Shown here: in pieces, positions 1 through 5,381 of the stretch
Layout: each line of letters begins with the position of its first letter
Numbering within the stretch: the stretch's first letter is position 1
Assembly (NCBI GenBank): GCA_903847095.1
Contig: CAINCQ010000039.1
Coordinates: 1 to 58,678 of the forward strand
Length of the DNA: 58,678 bases
Direction: 5' to 3'
Origin: an uncultured bacterium
Lineage (GTDB): Bacteria; Patescibacteriota; Minisyncoccia; Minisyncoccales; UBA5738
Program-made: the position numbers and the translations under genes
Notes under the pieces: generated by a model
What the model was told of the DNA's origin: nothing
The model's input: the letters and a program-made list of their open reading frames with translations, nothing else
Database searches by the model: none

Positions 1-54
1 CAGCATATATCATTCAATAAAGGTGGTGATTTACAAGCCTCTGGGTCTAATGAG

Positions 55-1809
55 GTGATGAGGATTGTGTTAGATAGCGGCAACGTCGGCATCGGGACGA
101 CGAGCCCCTCTTACAAATTGGATGTGAACGGCACATTGAACGCCAGTGCCACATCTACCTTTGCGGGAAGGGTGGGTATTGGGACAACCGCGCCGAACTA
201 TGCTCTTGAGGTAAATGGGGACGCATCTCTTTCAAGTGCAATATTCAGCGTATCAAATTCGCATACCGGAAGTAATGTATCTACGTTTCAAATGTTGGCT
301 CCCAATCTTGAGACAAACAAAAATACCTTTTTTACAATAGGTAAAGCAGCGAGTGTTAACAATTCATTCACACCATTTTTTCAGTATGTTGGGGACGGGA
401 GTGCAAGTAATTACTTTGGTTTTACCCCATACGGAAGTGGATCATTGGGACTGTTTGTACAAGCGAGCGGCAACGTCGGCATCGGGACGCCCAGTGCCGA
501 TGTTGCGAACCGGCCTTCTGGCTTAGTCCCGTTGGTACCCTCTGTTTCAACCGATGAGGGGTCGCGGGAACCAAAGGTACAAAAGGGACATGCCGCAATA
601 GCGGGCAACGTCGGCAGCGGGACGTGTCCCTACTGCCAATCCAAAGATTTTGTAAAGCGGGGGACGCGCCAAAAGGCGAAGGAACGGGTACAGTTGTATC
701 TTTGCCGAAATTGCCGCCGGACCTTCACGCCGTTCGCGATAAAGGGGAAAAGCTATTCTTTGCCGGTGATCATTGACGCGATCAGCTATTACAATATCGG
801 GTTTTCTTTTGAGCAAACAGCCAAGGTTTTAAAAGAAAAACAAGCGGTGGATATCCAGCCGACCACCGTTGCCAACTGGTATGAAGAATACAGGGGAATG
901 TGCGCGTACGCCCGCATGCGGCCGTTCGCGGTTAAGGAATATTCTCCTTATAACGTTGTGGAAACCGCGACTTTGGCGCACCGCCAGCTGTACCGTTTTC
1001 GCTTTCATAAAGCCAAAGCGAAGCTGATTATCAAAGAATCCTACCGGCACTATCATTTAAAACCGATGGCGGAATTTTTGGCCTTGGTTCCCAGCGAATG
1101 CCCGCACCAGTATTTTCAGGAGGGCTTGCGCGCGTCCGAAGCACCGCTGTTTTTTTCAAAAAAAGAAATGATCGTAAGAAGCAAGCAAAACTACGCCACC
1201 AAAATGGCGGGATTCGCGGTTCCGGCGGCCAGCGACAACAAGCAGCGCCACGAAACCTTGCAGAAATTCATGCTGTTCAACGATTCGGTCACGGTAGCCA
1301 CCGAAGTCCCGGTTTATTTGACACGCGAGGATTTGGCGCACATGCGGACGCAATTGGGATTCGAGGTATATCGTCCCGCTGCCGATATTGAAGCCGCCCT
1401 TCTGGGGCAGTCCCAAAGTGACGCGGGACCAAAGAGACATGCTCCTAAAAGCTATCAACTTCTGCAGCGGGACGACGAGTTGCCAAAACTCATCACCGGT
1501 CACGTTGACTTTATCCAAATCCGCAACGGCTCCATTCATATTTTGGACTACAAGCCCAACGCCGCGAAAGAAAAGCCTATTGAACAGCTTACTTTATACG
1601 CGCTGGCGTTATCGCGCCTCACCGGCTTGCGGCTGTTTGAATTCAAATGCGCGTGGTTCGACGAAAAAAACTATTTTGAGTTTTTCCCCTTGCACGTCGT
1701 GTATAAACGCAAAAAAGGCAACCGGAAGAAGATACGCACGAAAGAGGGAATATACAGCATAAACGAGAGAATGGATAAGGTGGAGAATATGTGTACGATT
1801 GAAGTCTAA
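55..1809 (+). CDS. Chimeric ORF: GNVGIGT-type tail-fibre-like repeats (aa ~1-145) joined through an in-frame repeat to a zinc-ribbon/HTH plus PD-(D/E)XK nuclease protein
   Basis: N-term GNVGIGTTSPSYKLDVNG / RVGIGTTAPNYALEVNG repeats; middle CPYCQSKDFVKRGTRQK..LYLCRNCRRTF zinc ribbon; C-term GHVDFIQIRNGSIHILDYKPNA..EQLTLYALAL resembles a PD-(D/E)XK core. Confidence 0.7.
   Translation: MMRIVLDSGNVGIGTTSPSYKLDVNGTLNASATSTFAGRVGIGTTAPNYALEVNGDASLSSAIFSVSNSHTGSNVSTFQMLAPNLETNKNTFFTIGKAASVNNSFTPFFQYVGDGSASNYFGFTPYGSGSLGLFVQASGNVGIGTPSADVANRPSGLVPLVPSVSTDEGSREPKVQKGHAAIAGNVGSGTCPYCQSKDFVKRGTRQKAKERVQLYLCRNCRRTFTPFAIKGKSYSLPVIIDAISYYNIGFSFEQTAKVLKEKQAVDIQPTTVANWYEEYRGMCAYARMRPFAVKEYSPYNVVETATLAHRQLYRFRFHKAKAKLIIKESYRHYHLKPMAEFLALVPSECPHQYFQEGLRASEAPLFFSKKEMIVRSKQNYATKMAGFAVPAASDNKQRHETLQKFMLFNDSVTVATEVPVYLTREDLAHMRTQLGFEVYRPAADIEAALLGQSQSDAGPKRHAPKSYQLLQRDDELPKLITGHVDFIQIRNGSIHILDYKPNAAKEKPIEQLTLYALALSRLTGLRLFEFKCAWFDEKNYFEFFPLHVVYKRKKGNRKKIRTKEGIYSINERMDKVENMCTIEV
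465..626 (+). repeat. In-frame GGGAC/GTCCC repeat, copy A
   Basis: ggcaacgtcggcatcgggacgcccagtgccgatgttg..ccggccttctggcttagtcccg..ccaaaggtacaaaagggacatgccgcaa..gggcaacgtcggcagcgggacg; closely matches 2490-2640. Confidence 0.8.
1400..1482 (+). repeat. In-frame GGGAC/GTCCC repeat, short degenerate copy C inside the nuclease ORF
   Basis: cttctggggcagtcccaaagtgacgcgggaccaaagagacatgctcctaaaagctatcaacttctgcagcgggacg; same frame as the other copies (cat gct = HA). Confidence 0.65.
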
Positions 1810-1826
1810 TAAATCAGAATAATTTC

Positions 1827-1856
1827 TAATTTTCAATTTCTAATTTCTATTAAATT
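1827..1856 (+). repeat. Left arm of 30-nt inverted repeat flanking the four-helix-bundle gene
   Basis: taattttcaatttctaatttctattaaatt; reverse complement matches 2251-2280 at 29/30. Confidence 0.9.
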
Positions 1857-1860
1857 ACCA

Positions 1861-2241
1861 ATGAGTGAATTTTCAAACAAAAATCAAGCGTATAATTTGG
1901 AGGAACGGACTGCGAAATTCAGCGAGAATATGTTAGCGCTTGTCCGCACGATAAAAAAAGATGATATCAATCGGAACATTATTGTCCAGCTCGTGAGAGC
2001 GGCGACTTCAATTGGCGCTAATTATTGCGAGGCGAACGCATCAAGCTCAAAAAGAGATTTTAGGAACAAAATATATATTAGAAAAAAAGAAGCGAATGAA
2101 ACGAAATATTGGTTGCGGATTTTGCTGGCGTATCATCCCGAGTTAAAAGAAACAATTTTGATTCTTTGGAAGGAAGCGCATGAATTTTATCTTATTTTCC
2201 AAAAAATTACCACTACGATCGACAAGGGGTCTAAAAATTGA
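1861..2241 (+). CDS. Four helix bundle protein (23S rRNA intervening-sequence protein family)
   Basis: LVRAATSIGANYCEANASSSKRDFRNKIYIRKKEANETKYWLRIL motif typical of the family. Confidence 0.88.
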   Translation: MSEFSNKNQAYNLEERTAKFSENMLALVRTIKKDDINRNIIVQLVRAATSIGANYCEANASSSKRDFRNKIYIRKKEANETKYWLRILLAYHPELKETILILWKEAHEFYLIFQKITTTIDKGSKN

Positions 2242-2250
2242 ATAAATAGA

Positions 2251-2280
2251 AATTTAATAGAAATTAAAAATTGAAAATTA
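2251..2280 (+). repeat. Right arm of 30-nt inverted repeat flanking the four-helix-bundle gene
   Basis: aatttaatagaaattaaaaattgaaaatta. Confidence 0.9.
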
Positions 2281-2284
2281 TTTT

Positions 2285-2932
2285 ATGAGCACAGCTTTTG
2301 TTCCCAAAAAGCCGGTTAAGAGTTTTCTCGATTTGGAAGTGTACCAGAAGGCATTGGAATGCGCGGTTTTCGTGGCGAAGTATATTGCCGTCCCGCCGCC
2401 GGCGTTGTCCGCCGTCAGGAGCGAGTCCCAAGGGGACGCGGTACCGTCGGGATCAACGGGACATGCCGCAACATCGGGCAATTTCGGCAGCGGGACGTCC
2501 AGTGCCGACGTTGAAAGCCGGCCTTCTGGCCTGGTCCCGCGGCCGCCTTTTGTCTCGAAGGATGATGGTTCGCCGGAGCCAAAGGTACAAACGGGACATG
2601 CTCCTAACGGCGGGCAACGTTGGCAGGGTGACGCCGGGATGGCCAAGGAATTGATTTTCCACCAAATGCTTCCCTGCGCCCTTGGCCTCCCGCACCTTAT
2701 CGCCGCGGCGCATTCGGTGCGTTTTGGCAGCCAAAAAGATTGTTTGATTTTGCTGGAGCGGGCGATGTTGCATTGCAACAAGATGGTTGTTTATCTGGAA
2801 GAAACGCGCGATATCGCCGATACCGGCGTTCCTTTTGAAAAATTCAGCGAACTTACCAAAAAATATTTATATCTGCGCCAAAAAATGCTCAATCTCCAGC
2901 GCTCTTGGAAAAAATACATGAGCGAAAAGTAA
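2285..2932 (+). CDS. Second four-helix-bundle-like protein interrupted in-frame by repeat copies B
   Basis: SFLDLEVYQKALECAVFVAKYI ... ELTKKYLYLRQKMLNLQRSWKKYM; about 85 aa of Gly/Pro/Ser-rich repeat-encoded sequence in between. Confidence 0.65.
   Translation: MSTAFVPKKPVKSFLDLEVYQKALECAVFVAKYIAVPPPALSAVRSESQGDAVPSGSTGHAATSGNFGSGTSSADVESRPSGLVPRPPFVSKDDGSPEPKVQTGHAPNGGQRWQGDAGMAKELIFHQMLPCALGLPHLIAAAHSVRFGSQKDCLILLERAMLHCNKMVVYLEETRDIADTGVPFEKFSELTKKYLYLRQKMLNLQRSWKKYMSEK
2390..2640 (+). repeat. In-frame GGGAC/GTCCC repeat, two adjacent copies B1/B2
   Basis: ..gcgagtcccaaggggacgcgg..acgggacatgccgcaac..gggcaatttcggcagcgggacgtccagtgccgacgttg..ggccttctggcctggtcccg..ccaaaggtacaaacgggacatgctcct. 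Confidence 0.8.
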
Positions 2933-2933
2933 T

Positions 2934-4613
2934 ATGCCGTATATTACCGCTTCACGGCTTTATGATTTTCTCCAATGCCCTCATCGGGTTTGGAGGGACA
3001 TTTACGGGCCGCTTGAGGAGAAATCCGAAGAAACCAATCCATTCGTCCGGCTTTTGTGGGATCGGGGCGTAAACCACGAAGACGCTATTCTGGCGAAACT
3101 GGGAGATTTCTTGAATTTGGAAGAAGGGTCGATCGACGAACGGTTCGGAGAAACAATGGAAGCGATGAAAAGCAAAGAACCTTTGATTTATCAAGGGGTT
3201 TTGAAATACGATAATTTGCTGGGAATACCCGATATTCTAAAAAGATCGCCCGATGGCGTTTATATACCCATTGATATCAAATCCGGCGCCGGGTTTGACG
3301 GTATCGACGAAAAGGAAGGCGGCGCGGGGAAACCGAAAAAACATTACGCGGTTCAGCTTTGTTTGTATGGCGATATTTTGAAAAAGCTTGGTTTTGCCGA
3401 TTCCATTCGCGGGGGAATAATAGATATTCGCGGCAGTGAAATCGAGTACGACCTATTGTCGCCGATGGGCGGACGAACTACGGAAACCTGGCTTGATTAT
3501 TATGAAAAGACAAAAGAACAAGTTGAATCTTTGGTAAACGATCGCGAAAAAACGTTGCCCGCCGTTTGCGGCGTTTGCAAATTATGTCCCTGGCACGATT
3601 CTTGCGAAAAGTGGTGTAAAGAATCAAAAGACCTAACCACTGTTTTTTGTCTTGGGAGAAGCTTTCGCGATAAAATAAATCAGGATTTGCTTATTGGCGG
3701 CATCGATGATTTTTTGAACATTGATGTTGGCGAAACAATGAAGCTAAAGGAAGCAACGAAATTATCAGGCGACCCTTTTTTTCTTCGCGGAATCGGCGAA
3801 AGCAGTCTTCAAAAATCGATCAATCGGGCGAAAATATTATATCAAACGAAAAAACCGGTAATTTACCGGCCAATTTATTTTCCGAAAACCCGATACGAAC
3901 TGTTTTTTGACATCGAAGATGACCCGACGCGGGAATTCGTTTATTTGCACGGGGTTTACGAAAGAAACGGCGCCAAAGAAAGATTCCGGGATTTTTGCGC
4001 GAAAGAATTTTCCGCAGCGGCGGAAAAAAACGCGTGGCGCGATTTTTGGGAATATGTTAAATCGTTGCCCCAAAATGATTTTTCGGTTTACTATTATTCC
4101 GCCCACGAAGAAACAACTTACAAAAGATTGCAAAAGCGCTATTCCGACGTAATCACAGCCGAGGAACTGGAAAATTTTTTTAACAATCCAAACGTAATCG
4201 ATCTTTACGGAATTATCCAAAAACAGACCGATTGGCCGTCCGGAAGTTATTCTTTGAAGGCATTGGCGTCATATTCGGGTTTTCATTGGAGAGACGAAAC
4301 GCCGTCGGGATCTTTGTCGATCCAATGGTTCAATGATTATTTGGAAACAAAGAATGAATCAACATTAAAGAGGATTTTGGAATACAACGAAGATGATTGC
4401 AAGGCGACAATGGCGCTAAAGGACAAGCTAGAAAAAATGAGTGGTAAGATGTTCCCAAAGTCATCCCTTTGGCGAGGATGTTATCCGGCGACTCGCAGTG
4501 ACCGCGGGAAACCAAGCTCCGCAGTGGCAAGACCACTGCTAAGCCAGCAGTGGTCTTGCCACTGCTGGCTTTTTTTGGTTCTTATGCTATTATTTTTTCA
4601 AAATTATAATTAG
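2934..4613 (+). CDS. RecB-like nuclease of the TM0106 family; C-terminus runs into REP sequence
   Basis: MPYITASRLYDFLQCPHRVWRDIYG; PIDIKSGAGFD; CGVCKLCPWHDSCEKWC; YNEDDCKATMALKDKLE; terminal ~50 aa look like read-through of repeat DNA. Confidence 0.8.
   Translation: MPYITASRLYDFLQCPHRVWRDIYGPLEEKSEETNPFVRLLWDRGVNHEDAILAKLGDFLNLEEGSIDERFGETMEAMKSKEPLIYQGVLKYDNLLGIPDILKRSPDGVYIPIDIKSGAGFDGIDEKEGGAGKPKKHYAVQLCLYGDILKKLGFADSIRGGIIDIRGSEIEYDLLSPMGGRTTETWLDYYEKTKEQVESLVNDREKTLPAVCGVCKLCPWHDSCEKWCKESKDLTTVFCLGRSFRDKINQDLLIGGIDDFLNIDVGETMKLKEATKLSGDPFFLRGIGESSLQKSINRAKILYQTKKPVIYRPIYFPKTRYELFFDIEDDPTREFVYLHGVYERNGAKERFRDFCAKEFSAAAEKNAWRDFWEYVKSLPQNDFSVYYYSAHEETTYKRLQKRYSDVITAEELENFFNNPNVIDLYGIIQKQTDWPSGSYSLKALASYSGFHWRDETPSGSLSIQWFNDYLETKNESTLKRILEYNEDDCKATMALKDKLEKMSGKMFPKSSLWRGCYPATRSDRGKPSSAVARPLLSQQWSCHCWLFLVLMLLFFQNYN
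4521..4565 (+). repeat. REP/BIME pair upstream of RAYT
   Basis: gcagtggcaagaccactgctaagccagcagtggtcttgccactgc, two opposed hairpins. Confidence 0.9.
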
Positions 4614-4630: not shown

Positions 4631-4643
4631 TTTGACTATTCTT

Positions 4644-5381
4644 ATGTCTCAAAGAAAAGAAGAATTTATAATTGGGGAAATCTATCATATAACCGTTCGC
4701 GGGGTCGATGGGCGGCCGATTTTCATGGACGGAGAGGATGATTGGCGAATGGTTTTTTCGCTCTATGAATTTAACACAACGGAATTGGTAATAATTCGCA
4801 AACAAAGAGAAAAGAGGTTGAAATACAAAGAAATGATCCGCAGTGGTCTTGCCACTGCGGAGCTTGAAAGGCGGATGAAGGAAGACAATAGGGATAAGCT
4901 GGTGGAAATTTTGGCGTTTGTTTTTATGCCCAATCATGTCCATCTGTTGTTGCGGCAAATAAAGCCAGGAGGAATCAGCCTTTTTATGCAAAAATTAGGC
5001 TCGGGTTATCCGCGGTATTTTAACAGCCGGTATGAGCGAAAAGGACATTTGTTCCAAGATAAATTCGCCTCCAGCCATATTTCCGGAAATGATTATTTAA
5101 AGACGGTATTTGTGTATATTCACACCAATCCCATCTCGCTTGTTGAACCGCGATGGAAAGAAAAAGGCGTAGAAAATCCGGAAAATGCCATCACGTTTCT
5201 TGAGGGATATCGGTGGTCTAGTTATCTTGATTATCTGGGAAAAAATAATTTTCCCGCGCTGACAGAACGAAGTTTTTTAAACGGAGTATTTAGAGATCAA
5301 AAAACAATAAAAGAATTCGTTGATTCATGGATCAGATGTAAGTCTATAACTTGCATAAATAACAGATTCAAACAGGGATAA
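4644..5381 (+). CDS. REP-associated tyrosine transposase (RAYT / Y1_Tnp, IS200-like fold)
   Basis: YHITVRGVDGRPIFMD; VFMPNHVHLLLRQ; GHLFQDKFASSHI; YIHTNPISLV. Confidence 0.92.
   Translation: MSQRKEEFIIGEIYHITVRGVDGRPIFMDGEDDWRMVFSLYEFNTTELVIIRKQREKRLKYKEMIRSGLATAELERRMKEDNRDKLVEILAFVFMPNHVHLLLRQIKPGGISLFMQKLGSGYPRYFNSRYERKGHLFQDKFASSHISGNDYLKTVFVYIHTNPISLVEPRWKEKGVENPENAITFLEGYRWSSYLDYLGKNNFPALTERSFLNGVFRDQKTIKEFVDSWIRCKSITCINNRFKQG
4838..4860 (+). repeat. REP hairpin inside the RAYT coding sequence
   Basis: ccgcagtggtcttgccactgcgg, encodes RSGLATA in frame. Confidence 0.85.

Follow-up and report, generated by a model that had tools for sequence, protein, structure and literature searches.

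A family of short palindromic elements in Patescibacteria, with copies in frame in conserved proteins, in rRNA genes and between genes

The window analysed here, a stretch of 58,678 nucleotides whose first letter is base 1 of contig C39 in a genome of 1.35 Mb (96% complete), carries four copies (A to D) of a palindromic element within its first 2.7 kb. Sequence comparison indicates that these copies very probably belong to a family of short, palindromic mobile elements, non-autonomous and specific to Patescibacteria, that resembles the Rickettsia palindromic elements (RPEs) and is tolerated in loops. The same element was found at unrelated sites: in frame within proteins, in 16S and 23S rRNA genes, and between genes. 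The inserts sit in variable loops, and uninterrupted orthologs do not have them. For 25 years, protein-coding palindromes, known mostly from Rickettsia, have posed the puzzle of how DNA can invade essential genes and leave them intact, and of which machinery moves it. The present family would be an independent case in another phylum. An earlier note on this DNA had counted at least four copies or partial copies, all inside open reading frames (ORFs) that stay open, and our analysis bears out four such copies. Its analogy to RPEs is likewise supported, by inserts that are missing from uninterrupted orthologs and present in unrelated conserved genes, and so is its placement of the host in the CPR, as the host order includes the Patescibacteria MAG JAHIOR01 (G124) and Wildermuthbacteria GWA2_46_15 (G077).

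Copies and host genes in the window

All four copies lie on the forward strand; the earlier note had located each of them, but their coordinates are better given as follows. Copy A (488–624), a full-length match to sequence models R2 and R3, lies between an adhesin-like reading frame and a zinc-ribbon/PD-(D/E)XK gene, all within a single fused ORF, and is 78% identical to copy D over 157 nt. Copy B (1372–1474; 103 nt with terminal inverted repeats [TIRs] at both ends; R3, 77 bits) lies in a loop of the zinc-ribbon/PD-(D/E)XK protein, between EVPVYL and LITGHVD. Copies C (2389–2497; R3, 64 bits; also a match to the TIR-pair pattern) and D (2496–2633; R3, 65 bits) form a tandem pair that overlaps by 2 nt inside a four-helix-bundle ORF. 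The part of the first match that had been placed at 465–489 does not belong to the element: positions 469–489 (GGCAACGTCGGCATCGGGACG) are GNVGIGT codons, a motif of the adhesin-like repeat upstream; the 5' edge of copy A adjoins this motif, which occurs a second time at 79–99. Within it, positions 471–489 on the forward strand resemble the 3' TIR at 18 of 19 nt. This motif is common across the order, and those TIR-like matches that were checked there proved to be GNVGIGT-type codons in frame. As a separate observation, the 3' TIR nearly or exactly equals these adhesin codons, both at the two window sites and in the 3' TIR of loci L087 and L141.

The consensus of the element (CGTCCCNNTGCCGANNTTG...CAANNTCGGCANNGGGACG) has 19-bp TIRs, opens with CGTCCC and closes with GGGACG. 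Copies range from 79 to 152 bp and are without a conserved ORF of their own. Against dinucleotide shuffles, the fold z was −3.6 for 471–624 (copy A), −5.3 for copy B and −6.1 for copies C and D together, and the TIR-pair pattern that matches copy C had no match in 100 shuffles of the window. Pairing and covariation in the TIRs of 35 copies exceeded those of 499 of 500 shuffles, a modest signal; RNA covariation in the first 10 copies only was not beyond that of shuffles. No Rfam family matched the element, and a poorly chosen gapped pattern (GGGAYATGCN{2,10}GCAACNTCGGC) had no matches in the genome. Like RPEs, which are palindromic units of 100 to 150 bp, the element is a palindrome with TIRs and a stable stem-loop; it also falls within the description of a miniature inverted-repeat element (MITE) as 70 to 300 bp long with TIRs of 15 to 30 bp and no coding capacity.

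The comparison of the host proteins with their orthologs, which had been proposed as a check, came out in favor of insertion for both. The gene at 625–1809 (forward strand) encodes a zinc ribbon (InsA-like) and a PD-(D/E)XK nuclease (Pfam PDDEXK_1, 6.9e-5; weak Zn_ribbon_InsA) and is fused upstream, via copy A, to the adhesin-like frame 1–489. Its neighbors are the same in G120, namely an adhesin upstream and ligase-like and rpoB-like genes downstream; the loop that holds copy B is short in the G120 ortholog and missing in that of G020. The four-helix-bundle ORF (2285–2932, forward strand) carries copies C and D as an insert of about 85 residues, and its orthologs in G124 (L080) and G349 (L185) are uninterrupted and align on both sides of that insert. 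At L185 (positions 3–3112), in an adhesin region, an intein-like N part (CVTGDTMLP...) and a C part (HNFVGNGILAHNT) flank the zinc-ribbon/PD-(D/E)XK gene and the four-helix gene, an arrangement that could be an intein-borne cassette.

Copies inside conserved proteins and rRNA genes

With host protein on both sides, and with host families confirmed by Pfam or NCBIfam, in-frame copies occur in DnaG (four copies in three genomes: G124, GWA2_49_9 twice, and a Sungbacteria genome), GyrB (two: Zambryskibacteria and Nomurabacteria), NusA (two: GWA2_40_14 and Sungbacteria), IF-2 (GWA2_49_9), MetG, CysS and TpiA (Yanofskybacteria), and AtpD, peptide deformylase (Def) and PolA (Sungbacteria), as well as in GalT, UDG and the zinc-ribbon/PD-(D/E)XK protein. 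No element that was checked disrupts a recognized gene out of frame. Insertion in frame into conserved, unrelated protein genes, with orthologs that are free of the insert, is thus a trait shared with RPEs. In DnaG, the insertions follow GGRV in G124 and VGLIK in GWA2_49_9, and neither insertion site is present in the orthologs of about 28 genomes, among them the same-genus genome G049. About 7 residues of the flanking loop are apparently lost, so that part of the loop seems exchanged and not simply extended; the way the element inserts, or trimming at a later time, may account for this. Profile alignments to PDB structures break at the element in IF-2 (70|96 versus 52|56), NusA (78|123 versus 71|71), GyrB (592|632 versus 592|605) and MetG (at 452). 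The AlphaFold model of the G124 DnaG is confident except mainly at 221–258, the insert, where low pLDDT is expected given that the orthologs are without it.

Might these segments instead be ordinary conserved domains or linkers of the host proteins? Recurrence would fit, since the zinc-ribbon/PDDEXK loop that holds copy B is occupied in G000 (the window's genome), G124, G349 and G627, and the GyrB and NusA loops are occupied twice each. This is nevertheless extremely improbable: there are orthologs without the segments, unrelated proteins, rRNA genes and spacers share this DNA, it is read in two phases, and for DnaG the insert-free protein of the same genus refutes the idea outright. With an inserted element, some of the inserts may be old and inherited, since several sites (the DnaG, NusA, GyrB and zinc-ribbon/PDDEXK loops) recur across lineages.

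The reading frame had been described in the earlier note as always the same, which proved false. Copies A to D have their first base at codon phase 1, 0, 2 and 1 and their 3' end at phase 0, 1, 0 and 1, respectively, and two of the three phases are used for the 5' TIR of 17 copies in conserved genes elsewhere: 12 in phase 0 (RPxADxE), 5 in phase 2 (VPVPxLP) and none in phase 1, a phase presumably avoided because TTGA would give a stop. Open frames numbered 82 against 64.7 expected, a comparison that is partly circular, as many of the copies are coding. The regularity of frame is best read as selection against stops rather than as a fixed coding unit. Because the element is stop-free in two of three phases and encodes a polar, flexible peptide, it could persist even in essential genes.

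Like RPEs, the element also occurs in RNA genes. A 16S rRNA copy lies between E. coli positions 1115 and 1174, and 23S rRNA sites are bracketed by E. coli positions 130–189, 274–419, 529–668, 1109–1187, 1704–1773, 1854–1889 and 2401–2414. One Sungbacteria 23S gene has six copies within and four more flanking it; a Yanofskybacteria 23S gene likewise has six within, two of which are identical over 115 nt, suggesting recent copying. Searches of the rRNA loci with Rfam matched only rRNA and separate group I introns. The strong hairpin, the abundance of copies at 23S rRNA sites in variable helices, and the insertions for which CPR rRNA genes are known (PMC11270868) could all suit an insert that acts at the RNA level, i.e., an intron or an RNase III-excised intervening sequence native to rRNA and spliced or excised from mRNA. 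We regard this as very unlikely: all protein-gene copies analysed are in frame and stop-free, which would be unneeded if they were excised; RNase III excision would cut the mRNA; and no group I or II intron model matches the element, the introns that were found being separate.

Distribution among genomes and lineages

A search of the window's genome with sequence model R1 (58 nt) returned six strong copies, the four in the window plus two between genes. One of the latter (C24:196274) lies upstream of the rpsL promoter region and the other (C22:13535) just upstream of a −10-like TATAAT and the start of a glycosidase-like gene. Equivalent places in the same-genus genome G001 (L067 and L070) are occupied as well, so both have been kept in two species. 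Among 147 relatives, element matches were confined to the same genus, the same family and family f46. Mostly intergenic copies had been named beforehand as a finding that would speak against the RPE-like reading; this is the situation in G000 to G003 (the window's genus and family), where most other copies are intergenic and often touch the 3' end of the upstream gene, but not in other lineages, where many copies are intragenic or in rRNA.

Across the genomes of 84,980 species, the strict TIR-pair pattern matched 24 stretches, of which named Patescibacteria account for 21; the remaining three came from one unnamed MAG and, in two cases, from one Nitrosovibrio MAG. The Nitrosovibrio matches (L134 and L148) were excluded as an apparently different repeat (CACCGTCATTGCCGGGC), though R2 gives them 35 to 41 bits; that palindrome has CGTCCCC ends and also satisfies the pattern. 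Lineages matched include Yanofsky-, Doudna-, Nomura-, Zambryski-, Sung-, Wildermuth-, Kuenen- and Azambacteria, among others, and although most of the sequences are metagenome assembled, they derive from many independent projects. The same pattern found no match in IMG/VR viral contigs. With both strands merged, copies per genome vary from one or two to about 16 (Yanofskybacteria, G628) and about 30 (Sungbacteria, G627). Because only two of 380 sampled genomes of the phylum were positive (the window's own included, and a lower bound given the strict filter), the family is patchy.

Known repeats, mobilization and candidate enzymes

RPEs (Ogata et al. 2000/2002) are described as about 105 to 146 bp long with TIRs and a long stem-loop, and lie in frame in conserved, unrelated protein genes, in RNA genes and in spacers, with no mobilizing enzyme known (PMC10969869, PMC2229807); they also end in CGTC (PMC3733652). 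The Patescibacteria element is alike in size, TIRs, stem-loop, in-frame protein insertions, copies in RNA genes and spacers, and the CGTC end. It differs in belonging to another phylum, across many lineages of ultra-small Parcubacteria; in its TIR, judged from literature descriptions rather than from RPE sequences; and in its RNA targets, which are 16S and 23S rRNA (up to six copies inside one 23S gene) rather than tmRNA and RNase P RNA. Occurrence in Rickettsia is not among the shared traits, the strict-pattern matches being nearly all from Patescibacteria, and we do not claim membership in the Rickettsia RPE family itself.

Three other classes of repeats invite comparison. CGTC-tagged REPs (Di Nocera et al. 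2013) have a stem of 8 to 9 bp that starts with A-T pairs after CGTC and a loop of 4 to 5 nt, are frequently intragenic in replication and repair genes, have no dedicated transposase known, and are reported from five phyla, Patescibacteria not among them (PMC3733652). CGTC ends, head-to-head palindromes and intragenic copies are common to both, whereas in the present element CGTCCC opens one long TIR stem and CGTCCCNNTGCCGANNTTG is without the defining short stem; L146 does have repeats of the CGTCATTCC kind. MITEs (ERIC, NEMIS, RUP and YPAL) are similarly small, TIR-bounded, noncoding and sometimes fused in frame, but for the element no target-site duplication was seen and no parent insertion sequence was found at the loci read, and its copies in core genes and rRNA are far more numerous. 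Finally, insertion sequences of CPR rRNA and 23S intervening sequences resemble the element in occupying 16S and 23S variable sites of CPR bacteria, yet the same DNA as the element's also occurs in proteins and spacers; the rRNA survey reports homing-endonuclease and intron insertions and, by a search for the terms, makes no mention of palindromes or inverted repeats (PMC11270868). A literature search, with most subscription journals and preprints outside its reach, returned no earlier description of the element in Patescibacteria.

Over 45 sites, neither a target-site duplication nor a consistent target was seen, which leaves the lack of the element in relatives as the basis for inferring insertion, and the loci that were read contained no parent autonomous transposon with the same TIRs. 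For an RPE-like mobile family, we propose that insertion itself has no preference for targets by frame and that selection would retain only those events that leave the host working: stop-free ones that keep the frame and fall in surface loops, or ones in variable rRNA helices. In proteins the insert would then be translated into a floppy loop, and in rRNA it would add a hairpin to the transcript. The mobilizing enzyme probably acts in trans on the hairpin or the TIR, without target-site duplication; a hairpin-acting tyrosine (Y1) transposase and the zinc-ribbon/PD-(D/E)XK protein are candidates.

The first of these would make the element the REP of the Y1 transposase gene at 4632–5381 in the window. 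The gene is 2 kb away, and insertion without target-site duplication fits IS200/RAYT chemistry. Since the palindrome around the gene is a different one of its own (GCAGTGGTCTTGCCACTGC), we consider this quite unlikely. The segment 4513–5442, with this transposase gene (of the REP-associated type) and several GCAGTGGTCTTGCCACTGC palindromes in both orientations, looks in its own right like a REPtron-like unit in Patescibacteria.

The zinc-ribbon/PD-(D/E)XK protein might be a dedicated mobilizing nuclease of the element, which would explain the copies in its own gene; this is a sub-hypothesis on the enzyme and compatible with the preferred reading. This uncommon gene contains or adjoins copies in G000, G124, G349, G627, G630 (L144) and L146, another copy lies near such a gene in G621, and in one genome an intein-like domain, split in two within an adhesin region, has the gene between its parts. 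Against this, elements occur in G001 to G003 and G077 with no convincing ortholog (G077 has only a weak match to the nuclease domain, E 1e-3), the reverse holds for G120 and G020, where the gene is present and elements are not, and the loop may simply be tolerant, as in L146 it holds different, in-frame palindromic repeats of the CGTCATTCC type where other lineages carry the element. We therefore regard the nuclease as a doubtful candidate; if it were the enzyme, this would be the first protein-coding palindrome family with identified machinery.

Because DnaG, GyrB, NusA and 23S rRNA have been hit repeatedly and near relatives are free of inserts, loop tolerance, target choice and recent mobility are testable in this family. 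For annotation, extra peptides in core phylogenetic-marker proteins, and extra hairpins in rRNA used for detection, would be mobile DNA rather than ancestral features.

Diversity-generating retroelements (DGRs) were considered as a mechanism and rejected, a PF00078 search having found no reverse transcriptase (RT) in the window's genome. In two relatives, G002 (L064, 3127–5724) and G003 (L065), copies lie directly downstream of an RT-like gene and beside a C-type-lectin-like (DGR-like) target gene; the TIR supplies the stop codon of the RT-like gene.
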